This document shows positions 8,431-55,832 of a stretch of DNA of 64,000 bases, in pieces; position 1 is the first letter of the stretch, and the number at the start of each line of letters is the position of its first letter. Below the pieces are notes generated by a model. It was not told the DNA's origin. It saw nothing but the letters and a program-made list of their open reading frames with translations, and did not search any database. This stretch comes from Sphingobium sp. (lineage in GTDB: Bacteria > Pseudomonadota > Alphaproteobacteria > Sphingomonadales > Sphingomonadaceae), in contig CP136575.1 in the NCBI GenBank assembly GCA_035196065.1, forward strand, positions 1,579,001 to 1,643,000, read 5' to 3'. The position numbers were made by a program, and so were the translations under genes.

Positions 8431-8468
8431 GATTTGCGTAACACACTATGTCGATTATTACGCAAATC
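8431..8468. promoter_or_regulatory. Operator O1, perfect inverted repeat between OYE and SDR genes
   Basis: GATTTGCGTAA (8431-8441), 16 bases, TTACGCAAATC (8458-8468): the two 11-base arms are exact reverse complements. This is the reference copy of a motif found in six divergent promoter regions of this window. It lies 23 bases from the OYE start and 17 bases from the SDR start, so a bound protein could block both promoters. Confidence 0.85.
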
Positions 8469-8485
8469 AAGGAAGGAAACGCGCA

Positions 8486-9238
8486 ATGAACTATGGATTC
8501 GATGGAAAAGTGGCGTTGGTTACCGGTGCCGGCAGTGGTATCGGCCGTTCGGCGGCACTAGGCTTTGCCGCATCGGGTGCGCGCGTGGTCGTTTCCGACG
8601 TGAATGAAGCCAGCGGAACTGAGACGGTTGACCTGATCGCGGCGGCTGGCGGCACTGCGGTTTTCCAGAAATGCGACGTATCCGACGGCGATGAGGTAAA
8701 GGCGCTGATCGCACGCGCGGTTTCCGAATTTGGCGGGCTTGATTTCGCCCACAACAATGCGGGCATCAATTCGATGATGGCCGACGAATATCAGGACGAT
8801 GTCTGGGCCAAGAGCGTGGGCGTCAACCTGACCGGCGTGATGATGTGCATGCGTGAGGAAGCGGCCGTGATGCTGAAGGCAGGGAAGGGCGCGATCGTCA
8901 ACACGGCTTCGATCAACGGGCTTGTCGGCAATGGCGCGCAACCGGGTTATGTTGCGACCAAACATGGCGTCGTCGGCCTGACCCGCCATGGCGCACTTCG
9001 CTGGGCGCAGGCGGGTATCCGTGTCAATGCTGTCTGCCCGGGGGTTGTCGAAACAGGGATGACGGCGCCGCTCGCCGCCAATCCCGATATGCGCAAGGTG
9101 CTGGATGGGATGACCCCAATGGGCCGCATGGGTCGGCCAGAGGAAATTGCCAGTGCGGTTCTCTGGCTATGCTCGGATCAGGCCAGCTTCGTGACCGGCC
9201 ACGCGATGGTGGTCGATGGCGGTGCAACTGCGGTTTAG
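8486..9238 (+). CDS. Short-chain dehydrogenase/reductase (SDR)
   Basis: A 250-residue classical SDR that would interconvert a hydroxyl and a ketone with NAD(P). It shows the cofactor motif TGAGSGIG (residues 14-21), HNNAG, the catalytic Ser in NTASING and YVATK (Tyr-x3-Lys), and the C-terminal VTGHAMVVDGG. D39 after VVVSD suggests NAD preference. A strong GGAAGGAA ribosome site (8471-8478) fixes the start at 8486. It is divergent from the OYE gene around operator O1, so it probably acts on a steroid hydroxyl, but the position is unknown. Its stop overlaps that of fadD3. Confidence 0.9.
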   Translation: MNYGFDGKVALVTGAGSGIGRSAALGFAASGARVVVSDVNEASGTETVDLIAAAGGTAVFQKCDVSDGDEVKALIARAVSEFGGLDFAHNNAGINSMMADEYQDDVWAKSVGVNLTGVMMCMREEAAVMLKAGKGAIVNTASINGLVGNGAQPGYVATKHGVVGLTRHGALRWAQAGIRVNAVCPGVVETGMTAPLAANPDMRKVLDGMTPMGRMGRPEEIASAVLWLCSDQASFVTGHAMVVDGGATAV

Positions 9239-10788
9239 GCTGATGCCGCGCCGCGCAACTCTGTCTTGAGCACTTTGCCAGAGGCGTTGCGCGGCAGGTC
9301 TTCGACAAAGACGAAACTGCGCGGAACCTTGAAATTGGCCATATTGGCCCTGCTCCATTCGACCAGTTCCGCCTCGCTTGTGGACATGCCCGAACGCAGC
9401 ACGACATAAGCGCGGCCAATTTCGCCCAGCCGTTCGTCGGCAATGCCGATCACGGCGACCATGGCAATGGCGGGATGTGCGGCGAGCAGTTTCTCGACCT
9501 CTGCCGGATAGACGTTGAAGCCGCCCGAAATATAGAGGTCCTTCTTGCGATCGGTAATGCGGACATAGCCTTGTGCATCCATTGTGCCGATGTCGCCGGT
9601 GTGGAGCCAGCCTTGCGGGTCAATGGCCTCGGCAGTCGCCGCCGGATCGTCAAGATAGCCGAGCATCACCCCTTGGCCGCGCACCAATATCTCGCCGGTT
9701 TCGCCGCGCGGCACTTCGCGCCCGGCATCGTCGGCGATGATCACATCGTTTCCGGGGATCGCCGCGCCGCAACTATGGGCGATCAGTTCGACCGGGTCGC
9801 CCGGCCTGCATCCAGTGATGTTGACGCATTCGGTCATGCCATAAGCAGTGATGATATCGCCGAGGCCTAGTTCACTGCGGATTTCCTCGATCAGCACAGG
9901 CGGAACGGTTGCGGCCCCGGTGGTGCCGCCGCGCAGCGATGAACTGTCGAACGGATGTTGGCGCTTGTGTGCAATCAGCATCTGGAAAATGGTCGGCGCA
10001 CCGGGCAAGAAATTGATCTTTTCGCGCTCGATACACTGCGCCGCCTCTGCGACATCGAATTGCGGCATCGGCACCATCACGGCACCGGCCATCAGGCAGG
10101 CTACCCAGCCGACCTTCATGCCGAAACTGTGGAAGAAGGGATTGACGATGAGATAGCGTTCGCCCTCATGCAGGCCGGTGTTGCCGATCCACACCTTCAC
10201 CTGCGGCAATACCCGGGCATAACTCATCATCACGCCCTTGGGGCTGCCGGTGGTGCCGCTGGTAAACAAAATGTCGGAAAGGTGATCGGCGGTGAGGCCA
10301 ACGAGGACGGCATCAACATCATCTGCCTTTGCCGTCCCTTCCGCGATGAAAGCCGGCCAGTTATCGGCCCCTGCCGCGATGTCGGTCAGCAATAGGGTGC
10401 GTTCCAGATCGGGCAGATCTTCACCTGCCAGCAGGGCGGGGTAATCGGTGCCAAGAAAATCATCGACGGTGAACAGGATGCGTGCCTTGGTGCGGCGCAA
10501 TATGTCGCCCGCCTCGCGGCCCTTATAGCGGGTGTTGAGCGGCACGACGGCGGCACCGGCACCCATTGCGCCAATGGCGGCGAGCACCCACAAGCGGCTG
10601 TTTGGGGCCCAGATTGCCACCCGATCGCCCTCGCCAATGCCTTGCGCGAGGCAGGCGGCAATTGCGGCACGTGCCTCCGACCAAAGCTCGGCAAAGGTCC
10701 ACTGCCGGCCATTTTCGATCAGCGCGGGGGAATCGGGCCATTTGAGCGCCGCAGTTTCGGCAAGATGCGGGATGGTATCGGTACGCAT
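9235..10788 (-). CDS. fadD3: Acyl-CoA synthetase, FadD3-like (HIP-CoA ligase)
   Basis: A 517-residue adenylate-forming ligase. Motifs in order: FTSGTTGSPKGV (ATP loop), YGMTECVN, GWLHTGDIG, DRKKDLYISGGFNVYPAEVE and the C-terminal NASGKVLKTEL with the catalytic Lys. In Mycobacterium tuberculosis FadD3 charges HIP, the indane propionate left after rings A/B are removed; the length and the neighbours (ipdF, fadE30, fadA6) match that role. The upstream open frame is longer, but MRTDTIPHLAE at 10788 overlaps the stop of the isomerase gene as ATGA and is the likely start. Last gene of the 17-gene minus operon. Assignment rests on context as much as on sequence. Confidence 0.75.
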   Translation of the reverse strand: MRTDTIPHLAETAALKWPDSPALIENGRQWTFAELWSEARAAIAACLAQGIGEGDRVAIWAPNSRLWVLAAIGAMGAGAAVVPLNTRYKGREAGDILRRTKARILFTVDDFLGTDYPALLAGEDLPDLERTLLLTDIAAGADNWPAFIAEGTAKADDVDAVLVGLTADHLSDILFTSGTTGSPKGVMMSYARVLPQVKVWIGNTGLHEGERYLIVNPFFHSFGMKVGWVACLMAGAVMVPMPQFDVAEAAQCIEREKINFLPGAPTIFQMLIAHKRQHPFDSSSLRGGTTGAATVPPVLIEEIRSELGLGDIITAYGMTECVNITGCRPGDPVELIAHSCGAAIPGNDVIIADDAGREVPRGETGEILVRGQGVMLGYLDDPAATAEAIDPQGWLHTGDIGTMDAQGYVRITDRKKDLYISGGFNVYPAEVEKLLAAHPAIAMVAVIGIADERLGEIGRAYVVLRSGMSTSEAELVEWSRANMANFKVPRSFVFVEDLPRNASGKVLKTELRGAASA

Positions 10789-11162
10789 CAACCTGCCTTC
10801 ATATTCTCCGGCCCCCAATAGGCACGCATTTCGACGATCTTGCCTTCGTCATTCAGGCGGAAGGTATCGATCACCTCGATCACTGATTTCTGGCCCTGCC
10901 ATTCGAGCCGGACGGCGAAAGGAAAGGCGACATAATCGGCTGCGCAACGCGGTTCGCCCAGCAGTTCCAGTTTCGCGCCGGTGGCCGTCGAACCTTGGTA
11001 GAATGCGCGAATTTCGTCATGGCCCTGCTTAATGGGAGTGCCTATCGGGTCTTCTACGGTCGCATCCGCGTCAAAAAGCGCGACGATCGCTTCCGCATCG
11101 CCAAGGGCAAAAGCATCGATATAGCCATGGACGGCGGCGAGTTTCTGTTCGGTGGTGGGCAT
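10788..11162 (-). CDS. ksi: Steroid Delta5-isomerase (3-ketosteroid isomerase)
   Basis: A 124-residue protein that matches bacterial ketosteroid isomerase along its length, including ATVEDPIGTPI, IRAFY and FRLNDEGKIVEMRA. With the start at ATG 11162 the catalytic residues fall at Y14, D38 and D99, exactly the numbering of the Comamonas testosteroni enzyme. The reaction moves the double bond of 3-oxo-Delta5-steroids into conjugation (Delta4). A GGAG inside the end of the MaoC gene serves ATG 11162; a TTG two codons upstream is less likely. Its presence in the operon argues directly that the pathway substrate is a steroid. Confidence 0.93.
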   Translation of the reverse strand: MPTTEQKLAAVHGYIDAFALGDAEAIVALFDADATVEDPIGTPIKQGHDEIRAFYQGSTATGAKLELLGEPRCAADYVAFPFAVRLEWQGQKSVIEVIDTFRLNDEGKIVEMRAYWGPENMKAG

Positions 11163-11164
11163 GG

Positions 11165-11626: not shown

Positions 11627-11636
11627 GCAGCCACTC

Positions 11637-21531: not shown

Positions 21532-22314
21532 TCAGTCTCTCCTCGCGGGCGGATTGTCTTTTATAACCGATCCACGGAAATTATGCGGATCGAGCCCGTT
21601 GATGATATCCATCTGTTCTGCGGTCGGCATGGGCGTTTCGCCAAGATCGCCTTTCAGCAGTTCAAAACCCGTCGCTGCCTGCACCTCGTCAAAGCTGACA
21701 CCCGGATGCAGCGATATGACGCGGATGGCGTGATCGGGCCCGCCAAAGTCCATCACGCACAAATTGGTGACAATCCGGCGTAATTCGACGCCTGAGAAAT
21801 TGCCGCCGGCAACGCGCTTGGCCGGATTATAACCGACGCCCGAGACCATATCGACTTCGCCTTCTACGAATATGCGGGTCGAATGGGCAGGGAAGAAGAA
21901 GCTGTTCGGGTGGTAAATCCCGTTTCCGGGGAAGCCGCGCACGCCCAGCATCTGCGTCTTGGGCTGGGCATGGGTGCCGCCAAGATAAGACAGGTTGATC
22001 TGGCCGAAGCGGTCGATCTGGGTTGGTGTGACCATGGCATGGCGGCGGCCTGTCCACACCGCGCTATCGAAAAAGCGCGAGAAGGGCAGATGGCCTGCGG
22101 CCTTGCGGTCGTCATAGCCACGCGGACCAAGCGGCACCGGCTGTTCGACCAGATAGGCCTCGCCATCGGTCATCATCAGTTCTGGGGTATGGGTCAGCTT
22201 GGCAAGGCCAGCGCCCAGCCGCGGCACGGGGCCGATGCCGGTTGCGATTACCTCTCCGCTGCCGCGAAAGGCATCGGCGCAGGCGACGATGCAGAGTTCA
22301 GCCAGTGTTGCCAT
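21532..22314 (-). CDS. ipdB: IpdB, beta subunit of the ring-C-opening CoA-transferase-like hydrolase
   Basis: A 260-residue protein of the class I CoA-transferase beta fold that matches IpdB (Rv3552): AELCIVACADAFR, LMMTDGEAYLVEQP, QIDRFGQINLSYLG, LGVRGFPGNGIYHPNSFF, NLCVMDFGGPDHAIRVISLHPGVSFDEVQAATGFE. IpdAB lacks transferase activity and hydrolyses a C-C bond of COCHEA-CoA, opening ring C. Starts with an ATGA overlap with ipdA, as expected for obligate heteromer subunits. Confidence 0.92.
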   Translation of the reverse strand: MATLAELCIVACADAFRGSGEVIATGIGPVPRLGAGLAKLTHTPELMMTDGEAYLVEQPVPLGPRGYDDRKAAGHLPFSRFFDSAVWTGRRHAMVTPTQIDRFGQINLSYLGGTHAQPKTQMLGVRGFPGNGIYHPNSFFFPAHSTRIFVEGEVDMVSGVGYNPAKRVAGGNFSGVELRRIVTNLCVMDFGGPDHAIRVISLHPGVSFDEVQAATGFELLKGDLGETPMPTAEQMDIINGLDPHNFRGSVIKDNPPARRD

Positions 22315-24939: not shown

Positions 24940-24977
24940 GATTTGCGTATTGAATGGCAGAAAAATTTACGAATGTC
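24940..24977. promoter_or_regulatory. Operator O2 between the C/D-ring and A/B-ring operons
   Basis: GATTTGCGTAT (24940-24950), 16 bases, TTACGAATGTC (24967-24977). The left arm matches the O1 arm at 10 of 11 bases and the right at 8 of 11, with the same spacer length. It would control 17 genes leftward and about 12 genes rightward, the whole ring-degradation core. It also rules out the upstream hsaA start at 24954, which lies inside it. Confidence 0.75.
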
Positions 24978-25022: not shown

Positions 25023-26243
25023 ATGGCAACGGTTGTCGCCATGCAGGACCGTTCTGTGTCCATTCCTTCGGCCGAAGAGCTTGTTGCTCGTGCAAAGGCC
25101 ATGATTCCGACATTGAAGTCGCGCGCCAAACAATGTGTCGCGCAGCGCAATGTCTCTGTCGAAACGATCGCTGAAATGCAGGAGGCGGGTTTTTTCCGCA
25201 TTCTTCAGCCCAAACGCTGGGGTGGTTTCGAAATGCACCCCAATGTGTTTTTCGATGTTCAAAAGGCATTGGCCGAAGGCTGCATGTCCACAGGCTGGAT
25301 GTATGGCGTGCTTGGTTGCCACCCCTATGAAATGGCGCTTTTCCATGACGAGGCGCAGGTCGAGGTGTGGGGCGAGGATGCCTCCATGCTGGTGGCGTCC
25401 ACTTATCAGCCGGTCGGCCAGGTAAAGACTGTCGAGGGCGGCTTCCGCCTCTCCGGCCATTGGGGTTTTTCCACCGGTTCGGTGCATTGCGGCTGGGTGT
25501 TGCTCGGCGCGCTGGTGTGGCCGGATGACGTTCCGGGTTCGGGCCCGCCCGACATGCGCACCTTCCTGTTGCCGCGCAGCGACTATGCGATTGGTGAAGA
25601 TGCTTGGCACACTTTCGGGCTGCAGGGCACCGGCAGCCATGACATCATCGTCGACGACGTATTCGTTCCGGAATATCGCACCCATCGTGCGATCGACGGT
25701 TTCCTGTGTCAGAATCCCGGGCAGGCGGCCAATGACGGTCCGCTCTACACATTGCCTTGGGCGCAGGTCTTCACCCGTTCGGTCTCGACTGCGGCCTTTG
25801 GTGGCGCTCAGGCTGCGATCAATGCGGGTATGGCGATCATGCAGGATCGCGTGTCGACCAACACCGGAAAGGCATCAAAGGCCGATCCCATACTCCATGC
25901 TGCACTGGCACGCGCCATTTCAGAGAAAAGCGAAATGGAGACGACGCTGCGCCTGACGTTCGAAGAACTGATGGGCTATGCCGAGCGTGGTGAACCGATC
26001 CCAATGCAGAAGCGCGCCTTCTTCACCTATCAGTCGAGCAATGTTGTGCGTCGCCTTGCTGATCTGGTTGACGATATCGTCAAACTGCTTGGTGGCCGGG
26101 CAATCTACATGACCAGCGACATCATCCAGCCATGGCTGGATCTGCATGCTGGCCGCGCGCATGTTGCCAATGATCCTTCGAACCGCACGGCTGACGTTAT
26201 CGGCACGATGCTGGGTGAAGAGCCCGCTTTCACCTTCCTCTGA
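25023..26243 (+). CDS. hsaA: HsaA/TesA2-like flavin-dependent 3-HSA 4-hydroxylase, oxygenase component
   Basis: A 406-residue group D flavin monooxygenase (acyl-CoA dehydrogenase fold). It carries MQEAGFFRILQPKRWGGFEM, GHWGFSTGSVHCGWVLLGA, GLQGTGSHDIIVDDVFVPEYRT and the C-terminal GGRAIYMTSDIIQPWLDLHAGRAHVANDP, all typical of HsaA. It hydroxylates the phenolic 3-HSA to the catechol using reduced flavin from HsaB (gene two downstream). GGGAG at 25010-25014 sits 8 bases before ATG 25023. First gene of the plus operon opposite operator O2. Confidence 0.93.
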   Translation: MATVVAMQDRSVSIPSAEELVARAKAMIPTLKSRAKQCVAQRNVSVETIAEMQEAGFFRILQPKRWGGFEMHPNVFFDVQKALAEGCMSTGWMYGVLGCHPYEMALFHDEAQVEVWGEDASMLVASTYQPVGQVKTVEGGFRLSGHWGFSTGSVHCGWVLLGALVWPDDVPGSGPPDMRTFLLPRSDYAIGEDAWHTFGLQGTGSHDIIVDDVFVPEYRTHRAIDGFLCQNPGQAANDGPLYTLPWAQVFTRSVSTAAFGGAQAAINAGMAIMQDRVSTNTGKASKADPILHAALARAISEKSEMETTLRLTFEELMGYAERGEPIPMQKRAFFTYQSSNVVRRLADLVDDIVKLLGGRAIYMTSDIIQPWLDLHAGRAHVANDPSNRTADVIGTMLGEEPAFTFL

Positions 26244-26257
26244 AACAGGGACCGTTC

Positions 26258-27076
26258 ATGGCCGAACTTGCGCTGAAGGATTATCGGGTTGCTGGCGATT
26301 ATGACATAAGGATCGCTGAGGCAGGCGAGGGGCCTGTTATTGTCTTTATGCATGGCAGTGGCCCGGGCGCTTCTGGCGCTTCGAATTTCAGAGACAATTG
26401 GCCTGCTTTTGTGGCGGCCGGTTATCGTGTGATCCTGCCTGATCTGATTGGCTATGGTGCATCGTCCAAGCCCGAGGGCATCGACTATACGCTGCAGCTG
26501 TTCACCGACACGCTTTACGATGCGCTGCGCCAGCATGGCATCGAAAGGGCAAGTCTGGTGGGCAATTCCTTGGGTGGCGGCATCGCTATCCAGATGACGC
26601 TGGATCATCCGGAGTTTACCGATCGACTAGTGTTGATGGCGCCGGGCTGCATCGAGGAACAGGCGAGCTATTTCACCATGCCCGGCATAGCCAAGATGGT
26701 GAGCGGCTTTGGCAGCCCCGATTTCAATCTAGAGGAACAGAAACGGCTGGTGTCGAACCTGGTCCATCCCAGCTTTGCGCCAAAGATTGCGCAGGCGCTG
26801 GTCGAGGAAAGATTTGCCGTCGCCCGCACCCAGCCAAAGGATGTCCTGGCGCGGATGCGTACGCCCAATCTGGGCCCGCGTCTTGGCGAACTTAAACAGC
26901 CCATATTGGTGATGTGGGGCCTGCAGGATGAATTCTGCCCCGAAAGCGGCGCACGCCATTTCCTCGACGCCGGTTGCGATGTGCGCACATTGACCTTCAA
27001 CCATGTCGGCCATTGGGTGCAGGTGGAGCGGGCCAGCGAATTCAATCGTTATTCGCTCGAGTTTTTACGTGATTGA
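26258..27076 (+). CDS. hsaD: HsaD/TesD-like meta-cleavage product hydrolase
   Basis: A 272-residue alpha/beta hydrolase that cleaves the C-C bond of 4,9-DSHA, giving HIP and 2-hydroxyhexa-2,4-dienoate. The oxyanion loop HGSGPGASG (32-40), nucleophile S104 in GNSLGGG, Asp in WGLQDEFCP and His in NHVGHWVQVE define the meta-cleavage hydrolase family. It follows hsaA by 14 bases; its end overlaps hsaB. Confidence 0.93.
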   Translation: MAELALKDYRVAGDYDIRIAEAGEGPVIVFMHGSGPGASGASNFRDNWPAFVAAGYRVILPDLIGYGASSKPEGIDYTLQLFTDTLYDALRQHGIERASLVGNSLGGGIAIQMTLDHPEFTDRLVLMAPGCIEEQASYFTMPGIAKMVSGFGSPDFNLEEQKRLVSNLVHPSFAPKIAQALVEERFAVARTQPKDVLARMRTPNLGPRLGELKQPILVMWGLQDEFCPESGARHFLDAGCDVRTLTFNHVGHWVQVERASEFNRYSLEFLRD

Positions 27077-27563
27077 TGGCTATCCGCTGATCCCCGAAGA
27101 ATTGCCCGCGCAGTTCAAGGCGGCGATGCGCCGGCTGGCGGCGTCGGTTTCGATCGTTGTTGCCAAGGGGGATGACGGCCCTGTTGGAATAGCGGCCACA
27201 TCGATCACGTCATTGACGGTGGACCCGCCAGCGTTGCTGGTTTGCGTCAATCGTACAACCAGCCTGCACGCATTGCTCGTGCCCACCGCGCCCTTATCGA
27301 TTAATCTGCTTGGGCGTGACCAGAAAATGATTTCTGCCGCATTTGGCGGCGGCACCCCGCGTGAGGAACGGTTTGGCATCGGCGAATGGGTGGAAGGCGA
27401 TAACGGCCTGCCAAGCCTTTCGGGTGCGCAGGCCAATCTTGAATGTGTGATCGACGCAATGCTTGCTTATGGCACGCACAGCATCGTTATCGCCCGCGTG
27501 TTGCGGGCGCGAGTGAGCGACAGTGTTGACCCGCTCATCTATCAGGACGGGGGATATTTGTGA
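27069..27563 (+). CDS. hsaB: HsaB-like flavin reductase component
   Basis: A 164-residue flavin reductase of the HpaC/HsaB type that supplies reduced FMN or FAD to HsaA. ATSITSLTVDPPALLVCVNRTTSLHALL and FSVNLLG-like PLSINLLGRDQ are hallmark stretches. No in-frame ATG lies near the expected N-terminus; GTG 27069, overlapping the hsaD stop by 8 bases, gives VIDGYPLIPEELPAQFKAAMRRL and is the best start. The frame is open further upstream inside hsaD, so the exact start is uncertain. Confidence 0.88.
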   Translation: MIDGYPLIPEELPAQFKAAMRRLAASVSIVVAKGDDGPVGIAATSITSLTVDPPALLVCVNRTTSLHALLVPTAPLSINLLGRDQKMISAAFGGGTPREERFGIGEWVEGDNGLPSLSGAQANLECVIDAMLAYGTHSIVIARVLRARVSDSVDPLIYQDGGYL

Positions 27564-28336
27564 GCGTCCACAGCCAATATGGATCGGCCCTTTATGAAGC
27601 GCTGCGCGACCGTAGGACGCTGCCGCCGCTGATCGAGCAAAATGCCGCGCTGACCATGGATGATGCCTATGCGATCAGCCTCGAATTCCTAGCGCTGCGC
27701 CGCAAGGATGGCGAACGTGTCGTCGGCAAGAAAATCGGCGTCACCTCCAAGGCGGTACAGGATATGCTGGGCGTGCATCAGCCCGATTTCGGCTTCCTGA
27801 CCGACTGGATGCACATAGACGGCGACATCGATGTCGACGCCAAGGCCCTGATTGCGCCGCGCGCAGAGGCAGAGATTGCCTTTGTCTTGAAAGAAGGGCT
27901 GGCGGGTCCGGGCATCACGGCAGAACAGGTGATCGCCGCTACTGACTATATCGCGCCCTGTTTTGAAATCGTCGACAGCCGGATAAGCGACTGGAAAATT
28001 TCGATCGTCGATACCGTCGCCGACAATGCAAGCTGCGGCGTTTTCATTCTGGGCGACGCCAAGGCTGATCCGCGCGATCATGATCTGCCGTCGCTGCATG
28101 TGACGGTGACCAAAAATGGTGCGCCGCTGTCTGAAGGATATGGCAATGCGGTGCAGGGCGATCCTGCGCAGGCGGTGGCTTGGTTGGCCAATACATTGGG
28201 CACTTATGGCGTCACGCTGGATGCAGGCGATATCATTCTGTCGGGTTCGCTCGTGCCACTGGAGCCGGCGGTCAAGGGCGATGTGTTTGAAATGACGTTG
28301 CACGGCGTGGGGACGTGCACCGCCAAATTTATATGA
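27560..28336 (+). CDS. hsaE: HsaE/TesE-like 2-hydroxyhexa-2,4-dienoate hydratase
   Basis: A 258-residue hydratase of the MhpD/2-keto-4-pentenoate hydratase family. [36 protein letters not shown] (acidic metal ligands) and [22 protein letters not shown] are diagnostic. It hydrates the C6 dienoate released by HsaD. Start is GTG 27560 within a GTGA overlap with the hsaB stop. Confidence 0.92.
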
Positions 28337-28346
28337 GGGAAACAGC

Positions 28347-29294
28347 GTGAAGCGCGTCAAGGCGGCAATCATCGGTTCGGGCAATATCGGCACTGACCTG
28401 ATGATGAAGATGATCAAATATCCGCAGAATATGGAACTGGCGGCAGTGGTCGGTATCGATCCAGAGTCTGAAGGGCTTGCCATGGCACGCGAGCATGGCA
28501 TTGCCACGACGCATGAAGGGATAGAGGGGCTGAAGAAGCTGCCCTGCTATGCCGAGATCGGCATCGCCTTTGACGCGACCAGCGCCTATGCGCACAAGGA
28601 TCATGATGCAGCCCTGCGCGCGGACGGTATTCAGGTCGTCGACCTGACGCCCGCCGCCATCGGCCCGTTTACGGTGCCTCCGGTGAATATGGAGGCGCAT
28701 CTCGACCAGCCTAATGTTAACATGGTGACCTGCGGCGGGCAGGCAACAATCCCGATGGTCGCTGCGGTGGCGCGGGTTTCCGATGCCGTCCATTATGCAG
28801 AGATTGTCGCGTCTGTATCTTCGCGCTCTGCTGGGCCGGGGACCCGTGCCAATATTGACGAATTTACCCGCACCACGGCGCGCGCGATCGAGGTTGTTGG
28901 TGGCGCGGCCAAGGGCAAGGCGATCATCATTCTCAATCCGGCCGAACCGCCGATGATCATGCGTGATACGGTGTTCACCCTATCCGAAGGCGGCGACGAA
29001 GATGCGATCCGCGCATCTGTGAAGGCGATGGTCGCCGAGGTGCAGAAATATGTGCCCGGTTACCGCCTGAAACAGGAAGTGCAGTTCGAACGTTTTGGCG
29101 ACAACAACCCGTTGAAAATTCCTGGGTTGGGTGAGTTTACCGGCATCAAATCAATGATCATGCTCGAGGTTGAAGGGGCCGGCGATTATCTGCCGCCTTA
29201 TTCTGGCAATCTCGATATCATGACGGCTGCGGCCAAGGCTACCGGCGAACTGCTTGCCGCGCGCCGCATGGGTCAGGAAGGGGCAGCGGCATGA
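28347..29294 (+). CDS. hsaG: HsaG/TesF-like acylating aldehyde dehydrogenase
   Basis: A 315-residue acetaldehyde/propanal dehydrogenase (acylating), which turns the aldehyde from the aldolase into an acyl-CoA. It has the Rossmann motif [12 protein letters not shown], the catalytic Cys in [12 protein letters not shown], and [17 protein letters not shown]. Start is GTG 28347, six bases after GAGGGA. It overlaps hsaF by ATGA, as expected because the two proteins form one channelled complex. Confidence 0.93.
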
Positions 29295-30331
29295 CGGCGC
29301 AGTTCAATGTCGAGGCGGGCGACAAGCTTTATATTCAGGACGTAACCCTGCGCGACGGGATGCACGCGATCCGTCATATGTATGGCATCGATCATGTTCG
29401 CGATATCGCCAAGGCGTTGGACGAGGCCGGCGTCGACGCGATCGAGGTGGCGCATGGCGATGGCCTGAACGGCCTCAGTTTCAATTATGGCTTTGGCGCC
29501 CATACCGACTGGGAATGGCTGGAGGCCGTCGCTGAGGTTTTGACGAAAAGCGTGCTGACCACGCTGATCCTGCCCGGCGTCGGCACGGTTGATGAATTGC
29601 GCCGTGCTTATGATCTGGGTGTACGCTCGGTGCGCGTGGCAACGCATTGCACCGAGGCGGATGTATCGAAACAGCATATCGGCATCGCCCGCGACCTTGG
29701 CATGGATGTCTCCGGCTTTCTGATGATGAGCCACATGATCGAGCCGGATTTGCTGGCAAGCCAAGCCCTGCTGATGGAAAGCTATGGCGCGCAATGCGTC
29801 TATGTGACGGACAGTGGCGGTGCGCTCGATATGGATGGCGTTCGCGCACGTTTCGAAGCCTATGACCGCGTGCTGAAGCCCGAAACACAGCGCGGCATGC
29901 ACGCACACCATAATCTTTCGCTTGGTGCGGCCAACAGCATCGTGGCAGCGCAATGCGGCGCAGTGCGTATCGACGCCAGCCTTGCCGGTATGGGCGCAGG
30001 TGCAGGCAACGCCCCGCTGGAAGTCTTTATCGCCGCCGTCGACCGCAAGGGCTGGAACCATGGCTGCGATGTGATGAAACTGATGGATGCCGCCGAAGAA
30101 CTGGTGCGTCCTTTGCAGGACCGTCCGGTGCGCGTCGACCGCGAGACATTGAGCCTTGGCTATGCGGGCGTCTATTCCAGCTTCCTGCGCCACGCCGAAA
30201 AGGCGGCAAATGATTATGGCCTCGATACGCGCGAAATTCTTGTCGAACTTGGCCGGCGCAAGATGGTCGGCGGGCAGGAGGATATGATCGTCGACGTCGC
30301 ACTCGATATGCTGAAGGCGAAAAATGGCTGA
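29291..30331 (+). CDS. hsaF: HsaF/TesG-like 4-hydroxy-2-oxoacid aldolase
   Basis: A 346-residue DRE-TIM metallolyase that splits 4-hydroxy-2-oxohexanoate to pyruvate and propanal. [17 protein letters not shown] carries the catalytic Arg-Asp, and [14 protein letters not shown] provides the metal-binding histidines. Its C-terminus ([15 protein letters not shown]) is the part that contacts the dehydrogenase in characterised complexes. Ends within the start of the next gene (8-base overlap). Confidence 0.93.
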
Positions 30332-33722: not shown

Positions 33723-34789
33723 CCGACCCGGCGCAAAGCTGGCGCGATTTTTGCGCAAAGCTGGCCGAGGCGGGGGACCTGATCCTTGCGCCCGACGTGC
33801 CCGAAGATCCGCTGATCCGCGCCGAAGGATTCCGCTATCTGTCGCGGTTGACCAAGCTTGCGCTGGAACAATATGTCGAGGCTTCGGACCCGGACTTCCC
33901 TTTTTTCTACAAGCTCAGCCATGAGACTGCGAAGATCGGGGCGGACAATCCGGACAATGTCTATTGGAATGCCTCGATCCGCGGGACGAATGATTACCGG
34001 ATTACCGGCAAGCGCGGATCGATGTTCTATTTCTCGATTGTCGCCAATGCGATGCGCTACCATATCGATGGCAGCGCGCATGCCACCGGCCAATTGCTCG
34101 ACAGCGATATCATCTGGGGTCCGGATGGCGAAGTGGAGATCATTGCCAGCTGTAACCCGCAACCCGGCAACTGGCTGCGGCTGGAACCTGATGCCAGCGT
34201 GATTGTGCTTCGTCAGTCCGCGCTCGACCGCGCAAATGAACGCGGCGGTGAGTTTCGCATCGAACGGATTGACGGGCCCGCCGTGCCGGAGCCGCTGACG
34301 GGTGAGAGACTTGCAGCGGGGCTTGCCACTTCGGCGCAATTTGTGCGCGGGATTGCAAGCACCTTTGCCGACTGGACCCGGCTGTTCCGGCAACATCCCA
34401 ACAGCTTCCCGTCGATCGATCAGTCGATGTTCCAGAAAGGCGGCGGCGCAAAGGATATCTATTACGCCCATGCCTATTGGCAGATCGCGGAGGACGAGGC
34501 GTGGGTGATCGAGGTGACGCCGCCCGAATGCTATTACTGGAATTTCCAGCTCGACAATTGGTGGATGGAAAGCCTCGACTATCGCTTCCGCCAGATCAGC
34601 GTGAACAAGCAGAGCGCGAGGCTGGAGCCTGACGGCAGTTTGCGGATCATTTGCGCAGCGCGGGATCTCGGCATCGGCAATTGGATCGACACGTGCGGAC
34701 ATAAAGAAGGGACCGCGCTGCTGCGCTGGGCGGGGGCGCATGAACACCCCCTGCCGCAGGCGCGCATCGTAAAACTGGAGGAATTGTAA
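33719..34789 (+). CDS. DUF1214-type protein of unknown function
   Basis: A 356-residue protein whose C-terminal half (YWQIAEDEAWVIEVTPPECYYWNFQLDNWWMESLDYRF and later SLRIICAARDLGIGNWIDTCGH) fits DUF1214, a beta-sandwich domain usually paired with DUF1254. No DUF1254 gene is adjacent. The N-terminal half contains YWNASIRGTNDYRITGKRGSMFYFS, also aromatic-rich. No signal peptide. GTG 33719 overlaps the SDR stop as GTGA. Function is unknown; conserved placement in a steroid operon makes it a candidate catabolic or carrier protein. Confidence 0.7.
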   Translation: MTDPAQSWRDFCAKLAEAGDLILAPDVPEDPLIRAEGFRYLSRLTKLALEQYVEASDPDFPFFYKLSHETAKIGADNPDNVYWNASIRGTNDYRITGKRGSMFYFSIVANAMRYHIDGSAHATGQLLDSDIIWGPDGEVEIIASCNPQPGNWLRLEPDASVIVLRQSALDRANERGGEFRIERIDGPAVPEPLTGERLAAGLATSAQFVRGIASTFADWTRLFRQHPNSFPSIDQSMFQKGGGAKDIYYAHAYWQIAEDEAWVIEVTPPECYYWNFQLDNWWMESLDYRFRQISVNKQSARLEPDGSLRIICAARDLGIGNWIDTCGHKEGTALLRWAGAHEHPLPQARIVKLEEL

Positions 34790-37368: not shown

Positions 37369-37406
37369 GATTTGCGTAATAACTGACTTCATTCTCTACG
37401 CAAAGG
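37369..37406. promoter_or_regulatory. Operator O3 between SDR/TauD and dehydratase genes
   Basis: GATTTGCGTAA (37369-37379) is identical to the O1 left arm; after 16 bases CTACGCAAAGG (37396-37406) matches the right arm at 8 of 11. The right arm runs into the ribosome site (AGGAG) of the gene at 37417, so a bound protein would sit at or downstream of the rightward transcription start. Confidence 0.8.
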
Positions 37407-42300: not shown

Positions 42301-42338
42301 AAAATGCGTAATTAATGTAGATCAAGTTTACGATAAAT
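42301..42338. promoter_or_regulatory. Operator O4a, TonB-receptor side
   Basis: AAAATGCGTAA (42301-42311), 16 bases, TTACGATAAAT (42328-42338). The core TGCGTAA and TTACG are kept with 8 and 7 of 11 arm matches to O1. It lies 28 bases before the receptor start. Weakest single copy, but its spacing and its pairing with O4b 62 bases away support it. Confidence 0.6.
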
Positions 42339-42362: not shown

Positions 42363-42400
42363 GATTAGCGTATTTTGATAGCTTTCAAGTTACGCATATG
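42363..42400. promoter_or_regulatory. Operator O4b, SnoaL side
   Basis: GATTAGCGTAT (42363-42373), 16 bases, TTACGCATATG (42390-42400); 9 of 11 matches in each arm. It ends 10 bases before the ATG at 42411 and abuts its GGAGGGG ribosome site. O4a and O4b are the only doubled operator in the window, one per transcription direction. Confidence 0.75.
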
Positions 42401-42410: not shown

Positions 42411-43049
42411 ATGCGATCATTGGAGGAGCGGATTGACCGGCTGGAGTCGCTCGATGCGATCCGCCAGCTTCCGGCAAAATATGCACTCGCGCTTGATATG
42501 CGCGACATGGACGCAATGGTTTCGCTTTTTGTCGAGGATGTCCGCGTTGGCAAGGATGCCAGCGGACGGCTGGCTCTGCGTGCCTATATGGATCGCACGC
42601 TGCGGTCGCCCTTTACCGGAACGTCCCACCATATTGGCGGGCATGTGATCGAATTTGACGATGCTGATCACGCCCATGGCGTCGTTTATTCAAAAAATGA
42701 ACATGAGACCCCCGTTGAAGGCGGCGCAGACGAATGGGTGATCATGCAGATGATGTATGTCGATGATTATGTGCGCCGCAACGGCAGCTGGCATTTCGCC
42801 CGTCGCTTGCCGCTATACTGGTACGCGACAGATCTCAACAAGCCGCCGGTTGGCGACAGGAAAATGCGATGGCCGGGAACCGAGTGGGTCGAGGGCAATT
42901 TCCACAAATTGTTCCCGAGCTATGACGAATATTGGGCCCGCGAAGGCGATCATGGCGGGCCGGTGGCCGAACCTGCGCCGCTCGAGAAATTTCTGGAAAC
43001 GATGCGGCGCGGGCAGGCCGCACCCAAGGTGAAAGTGCGGGCGGACTGA
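42411..43049 (+). CDS. SnoaL-fold protein, longer steroid-dehydratase relative
   Basis: A 212-residue protein with the same N-terminal pattern as the BaiE-like genes (LEERIDRLESLDAIRQLPAKYALALD, Y24 and D29) and a His cluster SHHIGGH (H73, H74, H78), then YVDDYVRRNGSWHFARRLPLYWY. About 60 extra C-terminal residues are not part of the SnoaL core. Possibly another hydroxysteroid dehydratase or isomerase. GGAGGGG and operator O4b immediately precede ATG 42411. Its stop overlaps the next gene (TGATG). Confidence 0.8.
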   Translation: MRSLEERIDRLESLDAIRQLPAKYALALDMRDMDAMVSLFVEDVRVGKDASGRLALRAYMDRTLRSPFTGTSHHIGGHVIEFDDADHAHGVVYSKNEHETPVEGGADEWVIMQMMYVDDYVRRNGSWHFARRLPLYWYATDLNKPPVGDRKMRWPGTEWVEGNFHKLFPSYDEYWAREGDHGGPVAEPAPLEKFLETMRRGQAAPKVKVRAD

Positions 43050-44617
43050 TGCGTAAACGCTCGATCGGCCTCGCGATCGCCGCAGCGCTCCTAATCGCAG
43101 GCGCTGGCTTTTGGACCAACGCCAATCGCGAAATCGGGATGGCGCGGCCGATTGTCGGGGCTGCATCGGGGGGCATAGTGCGTGACGACACTTTTGTGCC
43201 CGCACCGGTTGAGGGCCAACTTAACACCAATCCTTTTCTGGCCGCCGATGCCAATGGCACAATGCACGGCGACGGTAGCCAATCGGATACGCATCTCGCC
43301 GACGGTCCCTTTGCAGGCGCGCTTGAAGTGCGCAGCCGCCGGTCGGGCAATGGACTGCCGCGGCAATGCTCTACCTTTGTTTATCGCAGCGATGGCAAGC
43401 CGGTGGTGATGTGCGGCGGCCTTTCGGGCTTCCGCATGGTACTGCTCGATCCAGATACACTTGATGCGCTTGCCCATTTCGATCTGCCGGTCCGCCCCAG
43501 TTCGTTCGAAGCTTTTGTGAAGCGCGACATGGGTATCATGATGAACGACAGTTCGGGCGGCGCCTATATGTTCCTCGACAATCGCGACCGGCTTGTCTTT
43601 GCGAACAGCCAGTGGGTCGTGCAGCGGCTGGTCGCCGAAGAACGCGACGGGAAATGGAGCTTCCGGGTCGAACGCGAGTGGGATTTGAAACCCTATGTGC
43701 CGAACGACTGTTTCAACTGGAACAATTGGTCGACCGATAGTGAATGCGACAAGATCACGACCGTGATGCCCGATCATCAAGGGCGTTATTGGTGGACGAC
43801 GCGCAACGGACGGCTGGGTACGCTCGATTCCGAAAGCGGTGCGGTCAAAGTGCACAAATTGGCAGGCGAGGAAATTCAGAACGCGCTCGCGATGGATGCG
43901 CGCGCGGTCTACGTTCTTTCCGACCATGCGCAATATGCCTTCACCGCCGATGGCGCGGGCAAGCCGGTGCAACTCTGGCGGACGCCCTATGATCGCGGGA
44001 CAAAACGCAAGATAGGTTCGATCAACCAGGGAAGCGGAACCACGCCGACATTATTGGGTGACCAATGGATCACCTTTGCCGATAATGCCGATGGGCGGAT
44101 CAACATCGTCGTCCTGCGGCGCAGCGATGGCAGCCGCATCTGCGCCGTTCCGGTGTTCCGTGATGGGGCGAGCGCCACGGACAACAGCATGATTGGTTGG
44201 GGGCGTTCGATAATCCTTGAAAATAATGCCGGCTTCAAAAGCGCGCATGAACAAAAGGACTGGAATGCCATTGCAGGCGGTGTGGTGCGGGTCGATGTGC
44301 GCGCCGATGAAAGTGGGTGCGACACGATCTGGAACGCGCCGCTCAAATCGCCATCGGTGGTGCCCAAGCTGTCCGCGGCCAGCGGTATCGCCTATTTTTA
44401 TAGCTTTGATCTGGCACGGGATGCGGACGGCAAGCAGGTGCAGGACTGGTCGATTGTCGGCCTTGATTTCCGAACCGGCAGGCAGGTAATCAAGATACCG
44501 ACCGGGCGCGGCAGGCCGTTCGACAATAATTGGGCGTCAATGTCGATCGCGCCCAATGGCGATTTCTATGCCGGCATGACCGGCGGACTGGTTCAGGTGC
44601 GGCGCAAGCGGCCCTGA
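43049..44617 (+). CDS. Large exported or membrane-anchored protein of unknown function
   Basis: A 522-residue protein that I cannot assign to a family. It begins with a basic and then hydrophobic segment (MRKRSIGLAIAAALLIAGAGFW), so it is secreted to the periplasm or anchored by one helix. The body is rich in Asp, Gly and Trp with repeated strands such as RFVFANSQWVVQRL-like and TLDSESGAVKVHKL, compatible with a beta-propeller. Cysteines near CNW- and DSECDK-type spots could form disulfides. Coupled by TGATG to the SnoaL gene. A periplasmic steroid-binding or oxidising role is possible but unsupported. Confidence 0.75.
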   Translation: MRKRSIGLAIAAALLIAGAGFWTNANREIGMARPIVGAASGGIVRDDTFVPAPVEGQLNTNPFLAADANGTMHGDGSQSDTHLADGPFAGALEVRSRRSGNGLPRQCSTFVYRSDGKPVVMCGGLSGFRMVLLDPDTLDALAHFDLPVRPSSFEAFVKRDMGIMMNDSSGGAYMFLDNRDRLVFANSQWVVQRLVAEERDGKWSFRVEREWDLKPYVPNDCFNWNNWSTDSECDKITTVMPDHQGRYWWTTRNGRLGTLDSESGAVKVHKLAGEEIQNALAMDARAVYVLSDHAQYAFTADGAGKPVQLWRTPYDRGTKRKIGSINQGSGTTPTLLGDQWITFADNADGRINIVVLRRSDGSRICAVPVFRDGASATDNSMIGWGRSIILENNAGFKSAHEQKDWNAIAGGVVRVDVRADESGCDTIWNAPLKSPSVVPKLSAASGIAYFYSFDLARDADGKQVQDWSIVGLDFRTGRQVIKIPTGRGRPFDNNWASMSIAPNGDFYAGMTGGLVQVRRKRP

Positions 44618-47915: not shown

Positions 47916-47933
47916 GGATTGGCGAAGACCATG

Positions 47934-49997: not shown

Positions 49998-50035
49998 GCC
50001 ATGCGTAAAAAACAGTCGAATAAATTACGAAAATT
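49998..50035. promoter_or_regulatory. Operator O5 between the OYE/kstD and SDR/AtuA operons
   Basis: GCCATGCGTAA (49998-50008), 16 bases, TTACGAAAATT (50025-50035); 8 and 9 of 11 matches to the O1 arms. It ends 15 bases before the SDR start at 50051 and begins 55 bases before the OYE start. Confidence 0.7.
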
Positions 50036-50050
50036 GCGGATGAGGACGAT

Positions 50051-50812: not shown

Positions 50813-50824
50813 GGATGTCAACGG

Positions 50825-53246: not shown

Positions 53247-54955
53247 GCCGCCTGCGCCCCCCGCACCAAACGGCCCGGCCGTGCACCGGTGCTTTCATCC
53301 ATGCGGCGGATGATTTGGCCCGACACGATTGTTGCGTCATAGCCTGTTGCTCGCTGATGCAGGCGTCGGCCGCCAGCGGGTAGATCGTGCACGATTTCGG
53401 GGATGTGCAGGGCGAGCCGGTCCATATCGATGATGTTGAGATCCGCCTTTGCCCCTACTTTCAATGTGCCACGATCGTTGAGGCCCACCGCCTGTGACGC
53501 CTTTTGCGTGAGCATATGGATCGCCTGTGCAAGATCGAGGCCGCCATCGCGGCGATCACGGACGAAATGTTGCAGCAGGAAGGTCGAATAGCTCGCATCG
53601 CAAATCGCACCATAATGCGCGCCACCATCGCCCAATGCCGGGATGCAATGCGGGTGGCTGAGCATTTCATGCGCGCTCGAAAGCGAGGCGCCTTCGAAAT
53701 TGCCGAGCGCAACCAGAAACAGGCCTGCGCCTTCAGTCGCGAGCAGCCGTTCATAGGCGATTTCCTGAGGCGTGCATCCGCGCGCGCGCGCCTGATCGGC
53801 CATGCTCAGGGATTTGGGCGGGGCATAATCCGGCGGATTGTCGAGCGGGAATATCCATTCCCAATTGCGGGCAAGTGCGTTGAACGGATGACCCTCGCCA
53901 AATTCCTCTGCCAATAATGCGGCGCGCAATTCCGGGTCACGCATCGCAGCGACCTTTTCTACAAGCGGCAGATCGGCGATCTTCGCCCAGCTTGGGCAGA
54001 GCACGAAGGGGTGGACGGTGAGTTCAAGGCCGGCGATGAGGCCGATCGGGCGCGGCATGACTTGCGCGGTGACTTGTCCGCCACGGGCGTTGCTCGCCTC
54101 CATCATGTCGAGCACCGCGCGCCAGCGTGGCGGGCCTTCATTGCCGCTGGCGAGCGTGAAGGTTGCCGGACGCCCTGTTTCCTCAACCACCGCGTCGATG
54201 ACCTTATATTCCTTGTCCCATCCGACAAAGGCATCGAGAACGATCTGGAATGTGCCGGCATTGGCATCCTTCATTCCCGAACAGATCGCCTTCAATTCCT
54301 GCACATCGGCGTCGAAAGATGGAATAGAGCCGCCATCGGCGGTGCGGTGGATCGAAAGACGCGACGTTGCGAAACCGAGTGCGCCTGCCTCGATCGCTTC
54401 CTTGGTCAACGAACGCATCCTTGCGAGATCATCGTCATTGGCCGGTTCACGCCGCGCACCGCGTTCACCCATTGCATAGACGCGTAAGGGGGAGTGAGGC
54501 AAATAGGCGGCGACATCAATGTCGCGCTTTCCGGCGTCGAGCCGGTCGAGATATTCGGGGAAGGTTTCCCAGTCCCATGGCAAGCCTTCGGCCATGACGA
54601 CGCCAGGGATGTCCTCGACACCTTCCATCACGTTGATCAACATATCCTGGTCCGACTTGCGGCACGGTGCAAAGCCGACGCCGCAATTGCCCATGACCAC
54701 CGTCGTCACGCCATGGGCAGAGGATGGGGCCAGTTCCTCGCCCCAAATTGCCTGCCCGTCATAATGGGTGTGCACATCGACAAAGCCCGGCGTAACAATC
54801 CGGCCACTGGCGTCAATCTCTTCGCGCCCGGCACCCAGCCCCTTGCCAATGGCGGCAACGCGACCATCCTGGATCGCGATATCGCCCTCGATTAATGCGC
54901 CGCCAGTACCATCGGCAATCGTTCCGCCACGAATGACCAGATCAAATTCGCTCAT
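53243..54955 (-). CDS. Amidohydrolase, N-acyl-D-amino-acid deacylase family
   Basis: A 570-residue metal-dependent amidohydrolase. Strand-1 ligands are H62-x-H64 (VDVHTHYDGQ); MGNCGVGFAPCR carries the Cys used by D-aminoacylases as a ligand, and LGDGGAHYG the catalytic Asp. The family cleaves N-acyl amino acids. Conjugated bile salts are N-acyl glycine or taurine amides, so deconjugation is conceivable but not shown. It overlaps the Coq4-like gene upstream (ATGA). Cytoplasmic: no signal peptide. Confidence 0.83.
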   Translation of the reverse strand: MSEFDLVIRGGTIADGTGGALIEGDIAIQDGRVAAIGKGLGAGREEIDASGRIVTPGFVDVHTHYDGQAIWGEELAPSSAHGVTTVVMGNCGVGFAPCRKSDQDMLINVMEGVEDIPGVVMAEGLPWDWETFPEYLDRLDAGKRDIDVAAYLPHSPLRVYAMGERGARREPANDDDLARMRSLTKEAIEAGALGFATSRLSIHRTADGGSIPSFDADVQELKAICSGMKDANAGTFQIVLDAFVGWDKEYKVIDAVVEETGRPATFTLASGNEGPPRWRAVLDMMEASNARGGQVTAQVMPRPIGLIAGLELTVHPFVLCPSWAKIADLPLVEKVAAMRDPELRAALLAEEFGEGHPFNALARNWEWIFPLDNPPDYAPPKSLSMADQARARGCTPQEIAYERLLATEGAGLFLVALGNFEGASLSSAHEMLSHPHCIPALGDGGAHYGAICDASYSTFLLQHFVRDRRDGGLDLAQAIHMLTQKASQAVGLNDRGTLKVGAKADLNIIDMDRLALHIPEIVHDLPAGGRRLHQRATGYDATIVSGQIIRRMDESTGARPGRLVRGAQAA

Positions 54956-55779
54956 AGGCTTGTTTTCACCCCTCCCCAGAAATCGCCTTCTTTTTGCGTG
55001 TCGAGATCGACCGCGCCGCGCACACCAAGCTGGGCGCGCGCCTCCTCAAGCGGAGAGTGCCAGACGTCTTCCATCTTGGCCATCCAGAAAGGTTCGGATT
55101 CGCGACCGATACGGATGCCCTGCTGGATGCAGTCGAGCGCGCATTCCCAAATTTGCGGATAATGCAGCATCGTGCGTATGACATAGCGCGTCGTGCCCAG
55201 AATCGACAATACGCTCATCTCGCCGGCCAGTTCCTTGTTCTGGATGTGCGTATGGATAGTTGCGAGGCGGAACCAGTAAGGGATGAGTTCACCCATATAG
55301 TTGAAGCCGCCACCCGTCAGGATATGCTCATAATCATGGGTCTGGCCCGATCGCAGCGAGTAATATTCCCATTGCGTGCGCGGCTTGTAATTGGGGACAA
55401 TCTGGATGTCGTAATTTCCCTCTGTCGCGGTCTTGTAATAGATGCCGCCGACCGTGCCGGGTGCGCAGTCTTTTAGGTCTTCGATGGTGTAATCGGAAAC
55501 AAAACCTTCTTCGAACCAGGCGTCAAAGCGCGGGTTCACCTTGCGCTCTTCGGTGATCATATGTTCGATATGATCGAAATCGCGCAGTTCGTTCAATATC
55601 GGCAGTAACTGATACATTTCCGCCGCTGGCGGGAAATCGGGTCCGTTTTTCTTCAGCGCAATAAACGCTATCCACTCTCGCAGTCGGGGGCTGTTGAGAT
55701 ATTTGGAGGAAGAAACCAAAACGCTGGAGTCAGTGCCGAGTAATTGCACGCCTCGTGCCAGGTAAGGGATGTCGTCCAA
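54952..55779 (-). CDS. Coq4-like metalloprotein
   Basis: A 275-residue protein with the Coq4 zinc motif H-D-x2-H-x11-E: H148, D149, H152 and E164 in THDYEHILTGGGFNYMGELIPYWF, preceded by FEEGFVSDYTIEDLKDCAPGTVGGIYYK. Coq4 performs oxidative decarboxylation of the ubiquinone ring precursor. A copy behind a steroid operator suggests recruitment to another substrate, perhaps a ring or side-chain carboxylate (inference). The start is TTG 55779 preceded by AAGGAAG, with operator O6 15 bases upstream. First gene of a two-gene unit with the amidohydrolase. Confidence 0.78.
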   Translation of the reverse strand: MDDIPYLARGVQLLGTDSSVLVSSSKYLNSPRLREWIAFIALKKNGPDFPPAAEMYQLLPILNELRDFDHIEHMITEERKVNPRFDAWFEEGFVSDYTIEDLKDCAPGTVGGIYYKTATEGNYDIQIVPNYKPRTQWEYYSLRSGQTHDYEHILTGGGFNYMGELIPYWFRLATIHTHIQNKELAGEMSVLSILGTTRYVIRTMLHYPQIWECALDCIQQGIRIGRESEPFWMAKMEDVWHSPLEEARAQLGVRGAVDLDTQKEGDFWGGVKTSL

Positions 55780-55794
55780 TGGGCTTCCTTTCGC

Positions 55795-55832
55795 GAAATG
55801 CGTAAAACATAGCCCTTTTAAATTCGCAAATC
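55795..55832. promoter_or_regulatory. Operator O6 between Coq4-like and SDR/FadD operons
   Basis: GAAATGCGTAA (55795-55805), 16 bases, ATTCGCAAATC (55822-55832); 9 of 11 matches in each arm relative to O1. It lies 15 bases before the Coq4-like start and 53 bases before the SDR start. Confidence 0.72.

Follow-up and report, generated by a model that had tools for sequence, protein, structure and literature searches.

Introduction

Bacterial steroid catabolism is controlled by regulators of several protein families: KstR and KstR2 are the TetR-type steroid regulators of actinobacteria, while TeiR and TesR (LuxR type) and HsdR (LysR type) have this role in Comamonas. The accessible parts of two papers present TeiR and HsdR as Comamonas steroid regulators (PMC8399759, PMC6895838); the first also states that the bile-acid genes of Sphingobium sp. 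Chol11 respond to bile acids and that their regulation is little known (PMC8399759), and the second, in the portion available, reports no regulatory gene near the steroid cluster of Novosphingobium tardaugens (PMC6895838). According to the available portion of a 2026 paper, the bile-salt cluster of Chol11 contains a contiguous pair of Lrp/AsnC genes, NCHOL11_RS15865/RS15860; a function in amino-acid metabolism is suggested there, and neither an operator nor a regulon is given for the pair (PMC12882949). Here, we analyse an inverted repeat with a 16-base spacer which recurs beside the genes of a steroid-catabolism cluster of Sphingobium sp., and a tandem pair of Lrp/AsnC genes of the same cluster, regulators A and B. 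The window, as the whole analysed stretch of 64,000 nucleotides is called below, corresponds to bases 1579001-1643000 of a single-contig genome of 3.02 Mb, and the pair lies about 12 kb to the right of it.

A and B resemble the Chol11 genes in being tandemly arranged Lrp/AsnC genes within the steroid cluster of a sphingomonad and, judged from the description in that paper and not from sequence identity, the two are very probably the same pair. A and B differ in protein family from KstR/KstR2, TeiR/TesR and HsdR, none of which was found among the 79 genes of the cluster. We assign a probability of about 0.85 to the interpretation that A and B jointly read the repeat as the operator of a steroid-catabolism regulon, mostly as repressors. 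The motif, its spacing, its specificity within the genome, its conservation, its placement and its co-occurrence with the pair were all computed.

Results

Copies of the repeat in the cluster and in the genome

A first-pass annotation of the window had claimed seven copies with an invariant 16-base spacer, one of them a perfect repeat at 8431-8468 and the others related to it. All seven 38-mers were found in place, each formed by two 11-base arms and a spacer of exactly 16 bases. The copy at 8431-8468 is the sole perfect one (arm pairing 11 of 11), and the remaining six pair at 6-8 of 11 positions and keep the core TGCGTA...TACGCA with few changes; the window copies are one degenerate motif. 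A generic inverted-repeat search listed the 8431 copy alone, at rank 9 of 24 repeats, and the sites are therefore unremarkable singly; what stands out is the sequence that they share. The count of seven is real for the window, but the genome has ten strong copies, the other three lying up to 15 kb beyond the right window end. Likewise, each window copy lies between divergent genes, as had been claimed for every copy, but the other three are in tandem gaps. The distance from the operator end to the rightward ATG, given as 10-17 bases, measured 17 (O1), 10 (O3), 10 (O4b) and 15 (O5). The sites (without strand) and two of their targets are as follows, in the frame of the window, which is continued past its ends.

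O1, 8431..8468: perfect inverted repeat in a 78-bp gap between an old-yellow-enzyme-like gene (7325-8407, minus strand) and a short-chain dehydrogenase/reductase (SDR) gene (8486-9238, plus strand)
O2, 24940..24977: between an SDR and HsaC-like operon (minus strand) and an HsaA-/HsaD-like operon (plus strand)
O3, 37369..37406: between an SDR gene (minus strand) and a SnoaL-like gene (plus strand)
O4a, 42301..42338: between a TonB-dependent receptor gene (minus strand) and a SnoaL-like gene (plus strand)
O4b, 42363..42400: in the same gap as O4a, 62 bp to its right
O5, 49998..50035: between an old-yellow-enzyme-like gene (minus strand) and an SDR gene (plus strand)
O6, 55795..55832: between a Coq4-like gene (minus strand) and an SDR / acyl-CoA ligase operon (plus strand)
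70532-70569, 77392-77429 and 78651-78688: three more strong operators past the window end, all in tandem gaps
73474-73511: weak eleventh site (18.2 bits), which heads the gene run containing regulators A and B
25023..30331, plus strand: core target operon for an HsaA-like monooxygenase, HsaD-like hydrolase, flavin reductase, 2-oxopent-4-enoate hydratase-like protein, acetaldehyde dehydrogenase and aldolase
77511-78590, plus strand: kshA-like gene outside the window (PF19298, 196 bits, above cut-off)

The full consensus with up to three mismatches occurs twice in the window against 0.00 occurrences expected from shuffles. A symmetric weight matrix made from the ten own sites was run over 124 kb (the window, 20 kb to its left and 40 kb to its right) and scored these sites at 31.5-37.8 bits, the runners-up reaching 18.2 and 9.9 bits, and the best score at any other spacer from 4 to 39 was 27.3 bits. 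The pattern TGCGTAA-N16-TTACGCA with at most one mismatch has six matches in the genome, all inside 70 kb, against one match of the reversed pattern; the level of two mismatches is noisy, because it gives 19 places (11 in the cluster and eight outside) against 11 in the control. A profile built from 27 sites, the own ten plus 17 of relatives, was run over the whole genome at E<=10 and, with scores computed for 150 of the 157 first-look candidates, returned exactly the ten sites, each on both strands. The first-pass annotation had proposed a weight-matrix scan of the genome and its relatives, and had named matches scattered over the genome as what would speak against a regulon; the strong copies, ten in number, are confined to the cluster, and the motif recurs in relatives.

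The operators adjoin or precede genes for SDRs, old-yellow-enzyme-like, SnoaL-like and Coq4-like proteins and acyl-CoA ligases, as well as for two TonB receptors, the KshA-like oxygenase and the HsaA/HsaD-like operon beside the HsaC-like operon. Best NCBIfam matches in the cluster were HsaA (347 bits), HsaD (159 bits) and 3-ketosteroid dehydrogenase (516 bits), all below their cut-offs; HsaC (206 bits) came second to biphenyl-diol dioxygenase (241 bits), both below cut-off. For the KshA-like protein, NCBIfam gave no more than 43 bits, to another oxygenase. These products are relatives of KshA, KstD, HsaA, HsaC and HsaD with the same likely role, and not certified members. Together, the predicted gene set is that of a 9,10-seco-type steroid cluster, and the data leave bile salts, oestrogens or others as its substrate.

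Conservation and placement in relatives

Sixty-seven related loci were chosen for carrying the pattern or a relative of A or B, so they are not a random sample; two of them (L075 and L115) are the same contig and another (L099) is nearly identical to the own genome. With the 16-base spacer, the own-genome matrix found 104 sites in them; each of the other spacers from 0 to 44 gave 0-9, and the reversed-sequence control gave none. The relatives hold 102 distinct copies: 92 are intergenic, two overlap a called start codon, and eight are at contig edges where they are unplaceable. Intergenic placement is thus found in 92 of 94 placeable copies, with gaps accounting for 12.8% of the DNA. Convergent gaps make up about 14% of the bases in gaps of at least 38 bases, yet contain no copy. 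Thirty-seven of the intergenic copies are in divergent and 55 in tandem gaps, and divergent placement therefore does not hold as a rule.

A second matrix (110 sites) was applied to eight plasmid stretches of named strains which it had not seen, taken from 21 plasmid records with an A relative. Seven contained sites of at least 14 bits, against zero or one match in each reversed control: pNL2 of Novosphingobium aromaticivorans and plasmids of Novosphingobium sp. ES2-1, Sphingobium herbicidovorans, Novosphingobium sp. P6W, Sphingobium TomTYG72, Novosphingobium sp. KACC 22771 and Novosphingobium sp. PP1Y. The Sphingobium EP60837 stretch showed no site of 14 bits or more. In pNL2, sites lie directly upstream of A and upstream of an HsaA-type operon; an operon ordered like the O2 target follows a site in N. 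aromaticivorans, S. herbicidovorans and Novosphingobium P6W. The repeat recurs before functionally linked genes, is rare elsewhere in the genome and is conserved in relatives: as predicted from these marks, it is the operator of a steroid-catabolism regulon. The proposal of a candidate regulon signature for the steroid pathway is borne out by the confinement of the strong copies to the cluster and by the motif standing before similar operons in relatives.

Regulators A and B

Both genes are outside the window:

Regulator A, window-frame 76420-76899, plus strand: 159 aa, Lrp/AsnC
Regulator B, window-frame 76896-77387, plus strand: 163 aa, Lrp/AsnC

They are in tandem with an overlap of four bases, directly before the operator at 77392 and the kshA-like gene. 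A matches PF13404 with 43.2 bits and PF01037 with 50.0 bits, and B with 51.6 and 38.7 bits, all above cut-off. Both therefore show an N-terminal AsnC-type helix-turn-helix (HTH) followed by a C-terminal ligand-binding (RAM) domain, the architecture of E. coli Lrp and AsnC, Pyrococcus FL11 and Sulfolobus Ss-LrpB and BarR. Proteins of this family respond to small molecules, in many cases amino acids. They align over near full length with solved Lrp-family chains (best E 3e-21 and 6.5e-14), and neither reaches the cut-off of any NCBIfam model matched. B is 92% identical in Sphingorhabdus contaminans, the closest named relative by B, and 100% identical in a metagenome-assembled genome. In relatives, A precedes B at almost every place found, distant pairs included; a site immediately follows B in many loci, and in some a site precedes A.

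The cluster gene set used here comprises 79 genes from our own calling (open reading frames, ORFs, of at least 150 bases, window-frame 207 to 81342), all of which were scanned with Pfam. No transcription factor besides A and B was detected among them (five of the 79 proteins have no Pfam match), none has a TetR domain or matches a LuxR-type (TeiR/TesR-like) regulator, and the lone TetR_N match in the flank genes scanned is 21 kb left of O1.

These results bear on the alternative that the operator is real and is read by a regulator encoded elsewhere (TetR, AraC, LuxR, LysR or another Lrp), A and B being cluster neighbours. TetR, LysR, AraC or other HTH genes do occur in the clusters of some relatives, and the accessible text of one paper assigns TetR and AraC regulators to clusters of Caenibius tardaugens (PMC12882949). 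Three more AsnC-type matches elsewhere in the own genome speak in the same direction, as do two genomes (G139 and G296) which have five and six strict sites and only distant tandem pairs (30-36%). Against this, no such gene is among the 79, and the A/B pair is, by annotation, the sole regulator type common to four of the loci (L126, L128, L129 and L131, the last with many unnamed proteins), and sites flank the pair. We consider a reader encoded elsewhere quite unlikely.

A LysR-type gene left of the window (window-frame -922 to -20, L005:19078-19980, minus strand) was tried as reader of the motif and rejected: a relative at E<=1e-60 is found in one of 16 other motif-rich genomes and in none of 17 others tested. 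It stands beside a MOFRL/DUF4147 gene, presumably of the glycerate-kinase type, and a major facilitator superfamily (MFS) transporter gene, left of TonB/glycosidase genes.

The number of tandem Lrp A/B pairs, which belong to different subfamilies, reaches three in some genomes (L086 and L087 in G084, L085 in G011, L078/L093/L094 in G061, L127 in ES2-1). A occurs without B in the 40 kb seen of ES2-1, near a site, and B without A in G061, also near a site, the G061 copy containing, as reported, one in-frame TGA. These two cases make it doubtful that both proteins are strictly required, and weigh against joint reading. Together with the multiple pairs, they suggest, at the sequence level, an expanded regulator family with other targets.

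Distribution of operator and pair

Co-occurrence was studied in 298 Sphingomonadaceae genomes including the own, with an A orthologue defined by at least 60% identity. Of the 297 other genomes, 23 have an A orthologue and 274 do not. At least two strict sites are present in 13 of the 23 and three of the 274 (p=3e-14, a value which is optimistic because the genomes are related), and at least one site in 19 of the 23 and 27 of the 274. Single strict matches are near control level, as the latter count illustrates; three or more strict sites occur in 15 of the 298 genomes, and the reversed control has at most two among the genomes tabulated. When the other ten genomes with an A orthologue were searched with the profile, nine had a match (best E 0.003-0.08 per genome), which raises the total to 22 of 23. 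Three outliers show sites with no close orthologue, G139 and G296, mentioned above, and G011 (A at 54%). In G139 (L090, L091), the operator-like sites lie beside a TonB receptor gene and between a Ros/MucR gene and a luciferase-like monooxygenase gene. In two genomes (G168 and G289), distant pairs (32-36%) are separated by about 6 kb from sites standing before a gene for an HsaA-type C-terminal domain, and in G168 this gene is followed by hydrolase, hydratase-type and dehydrogenase genes in the same order. Among genomes of the own genus without the pair, two have one strict match each and three have none.

Outside the family, 337 alphaproteobacterial genomes drawn evenly, the own included, were searched for A, which is present at 52-58% identity in three genomes belonging to two other families, all with an adjacent B (47-49%) and steroid-type genes nearby. 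The matrix used to score their operators contained no sites from these families. In the first (G619), an operator scoring 40.9 bits stands upstream of an HsaA-like gene (53% identical). The second (G445) shows operators of 38.6 and 33.4 bits, one ahead of an old-yellow-enzyme/KshA pair and one separating a ligase gene from an SDR gene, scores which count for less since its GC content of 48% inflates them; reversed controls of five stretches gave 0-1 matches at 14 bits. In the third (G540), a single weak site (20.3 bits) lies close to an HsaC-like gene.

Several observations weigh against A and B as readers of the operator. The one A-orthologue genome without a profile match (G253) has the pair and no site near it, and another genome (G084) has pairs with neither a nearby site nor a profile match. 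Of four genomes with remoter A relatives only, one (G057) has a profile match, far from its pair; G206 and G161, with A relatives of 51% and 34%, have none. No 20-bit site is found in the stretch read for eight pairs (L080, L082, L086, L087, L092, L093, L097 and L098), nor in Novosphingobium AAP83 (L122) or the 20 kb round the G071 pair, and the Sphingobium EP60837 pair (46-47%) has no site within 15 kb. Finally, co-occurrence alone cannot separate the pair from its surrounding cluster. The EP60837 pair (L130, pEP1) is located on a conjugative plasmid near toxin-antitoxin genes. In the gaps beside 19 further A/B pairs, a search for inverted repeats with spacers of 10-21 gave mostly GC-rich matches and no common motif, and a comparison of recognition helices with arm variants was uninformative, the helices of close orthologues hardly varying.

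Architecture of the operator and overlap with promoters

In 224 half-sites of the 67 loci, C at position 7 and G at position 8 have a rounded frequency of 1.00 with at least one exception (L081), G is at position 6 in 91% and T at position 9 in 93%. The pseudo-dyad centres of the two arms are 24 bp apart, about 2.3 helical turns. The earlier suggestion of two symmetric dimers about 27 bases apart on near-palindromic arms is rejected on account of the 24-bp distance and the fixed polarity of the arms. A symmetric dimer per arm is disfavoured because G6 would then be mirrored by C9, where T is found in 93%. Read most simply, these sequences would have each arm bound by a single recognition helix or by a single A-B heterodimer. 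Apart from being AT-rich, the spacer is free in sequence, a character as in bent or wrapped DNA.

Promoter-like elements were sought by weak consensus scoring with no shuffled control (123 of 152 oriented promoters passed) in groups of sites assembled by eye and not by orthology, and only patterns recurring across sites were used. The 70532 group, with 11 sequences including the own, has a -35-like hexamer (TTGNNN in 10) 17 bp before TATGCG, which is within the left arm; at O1 and six similar sites, TTGACC ends directly before the operator; and the spacer contains TTGACA or TTGACT at 78651 and in seven further sequences. The operators of these three groups cover likely core promoter elements and, therefore, repression is favoured. 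Consensus scans for promoters and terminators between 37000 and 43000 found no more than in shuffles.

The arrangement also raises the alternative that the palindrome is a pair of back-to-back promoters, one arm supplying a -35-like TTGCGT and the opposite arm a -10-like element. The arm separation resembles that of -35 and -10 elements, short gaps such as 8408-8485 leave promoters no room clear of the repeat, and some sites have promoter-like pairs inside them. However, the near-invariant CG core is not part of sigma-70 elements, promoters would be expected genome-wide whereas the strong motif is confined to the cluster, 55 of the 92 intergenic copies are in tandem gaps, and the -35-like elements stand at -21, -8 or +17 relative to the operator, differing between groups. 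Back-to-back promoters are thus very improbable, and chance or a promoter artefact as the origin of the motif is rejected.

The claim of repression has support in the groups in which promoter-like elements overlap the operator, and does not extend to kshA and the leftward gene of O5, whose best promoter-like pair is wholly downstream of the operator, an activator-like position. At kshA, this is a recurrent TTGCC...TACG element, which counts against repression there; between operator and kshA (L006:13445-13500 and similar sites) it recurs across genera and may hold a third half-site. Lrp-type regulators of catabolic genes are often activators, and A and B might bind the operator chiefly in that capacity. 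We regard this as unlikely, since many sites end 7-20 bases before the called start codon and share bases with recurrent -10- or -35-like elements, and a protein bound at such a position would keep the polymerase out.

Other features of the cluster

The TonB-dependent receptor at 207-2697 of the window is split into two adjacent ORFs (609 and 217 aa) matching successive parts of one barrel model, and is probably a broken or mis-assembled gene. Two Coq4-like proteins are encoded in the cluster (window 54952-55617 and L006:5604-6488), and Coq4-family genes are also near the A/B pair in N. aromaticivorans and ES2-1. Proteins without a Pfam match at threshold are those of window 43049-44617, 33719-34789, 21532-22314 and 62114-62407 and of L006:2928-3527 (522, 356, 260, 97 and 199 aa, respectively).

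Discussion

We infer binding of A and B to the operator, their joint action, the sign of the regulation and its effector as follows. A and B would form a single higher-order assembly on the two arms (WTGCGTAA), which point inward, and the 16-bp AT-rich spacer would be fixed because both arms are bound by this one assembly. The bound assembly would cover the -35 and/or -10 element at most sites and so repress; where the 38-bp operator fills a short divergent gap, the genes on either side could be shut down together. Repression would be lifted by a steroid or by an intermediate of its degradation, for example a CoA thioester, and at kshA, with the operator upstream of the promoter, the same assembly may activate.

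A and B and the described Lrp/AsnC systems have in common partly palindromic, AT-rich sites used in sets; what differs here is the 24-bp arm distance, the near-invariant CG core, the tandem gene pair and the steroid targets. In the accessible parts of the literature, Lrp sites are two or three helical turns apart, centre to centre (PMC2995911), which speaks against an Lrp-type reader; the spacings given there are not matched by this operator, and the roles described are often in amino-acid metabolism (PMC2995911, PMC10201364). Canonical Lrp operators being imperfect palindromes two or three turns apart, we do not file this site as one, because its arms are 24 bp or about 2.3 turns apart. The arms may be half-sites of a different assembly, to which that spacing rule would not apply. 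The regulon operator is genuine and well conserved, and A and B are strong candidates for its regulators; the system is a variant inside the Lrp/AsnC kind and not a new kind.

A further proposal is tentative and rather doubtful as a whole: an A-B hetero-oligomer might sense a steroid-derived ligand, each polar arm (TGC|GTA) being read by one heterodimer, with A on one half and B on the other, and the heterodimers, 24 bp apart and off the usual Lrp phasing, would repress or activate the whole steroid pathway. If so, the hetero-oligomer would be found as a unit in at least three alphaproteobacterial families, and it would be, to our knowledge, the first pathway-specific, steroid-responsive heteromeric Lrp system.

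The first-pass annotation knew of no description of the exact motif, and none was among the matches listed in our literature searches, whose reach left subscription papers mostly outside; a search for the Lrp family with steroid and Sphingomonadaceae found no paper since 2018. The A/B pair is very probably already in print for Chol11 without an operator. According to the available text of another study, alpha-tomatine raises steroid-pathway transcripts in Sphingobium RC1, and TomTYG72 is another isolate of that study (PMC10653915). TomTYG72 carries the A/B pair and three sites, which fits the model and is no proof of it.

The operator together with A and B would explain how steroid breakdown is switched on and off in these bacteria. 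A defined operator and a named regulator pair make the regulation of the steroid cluster testable, and the operator profile offers a means to find steroid genes in unannotated genomes and metagenomes. The finding also points to Lrp-type proteins acting beyond their usual role in amino-acid metabolism.

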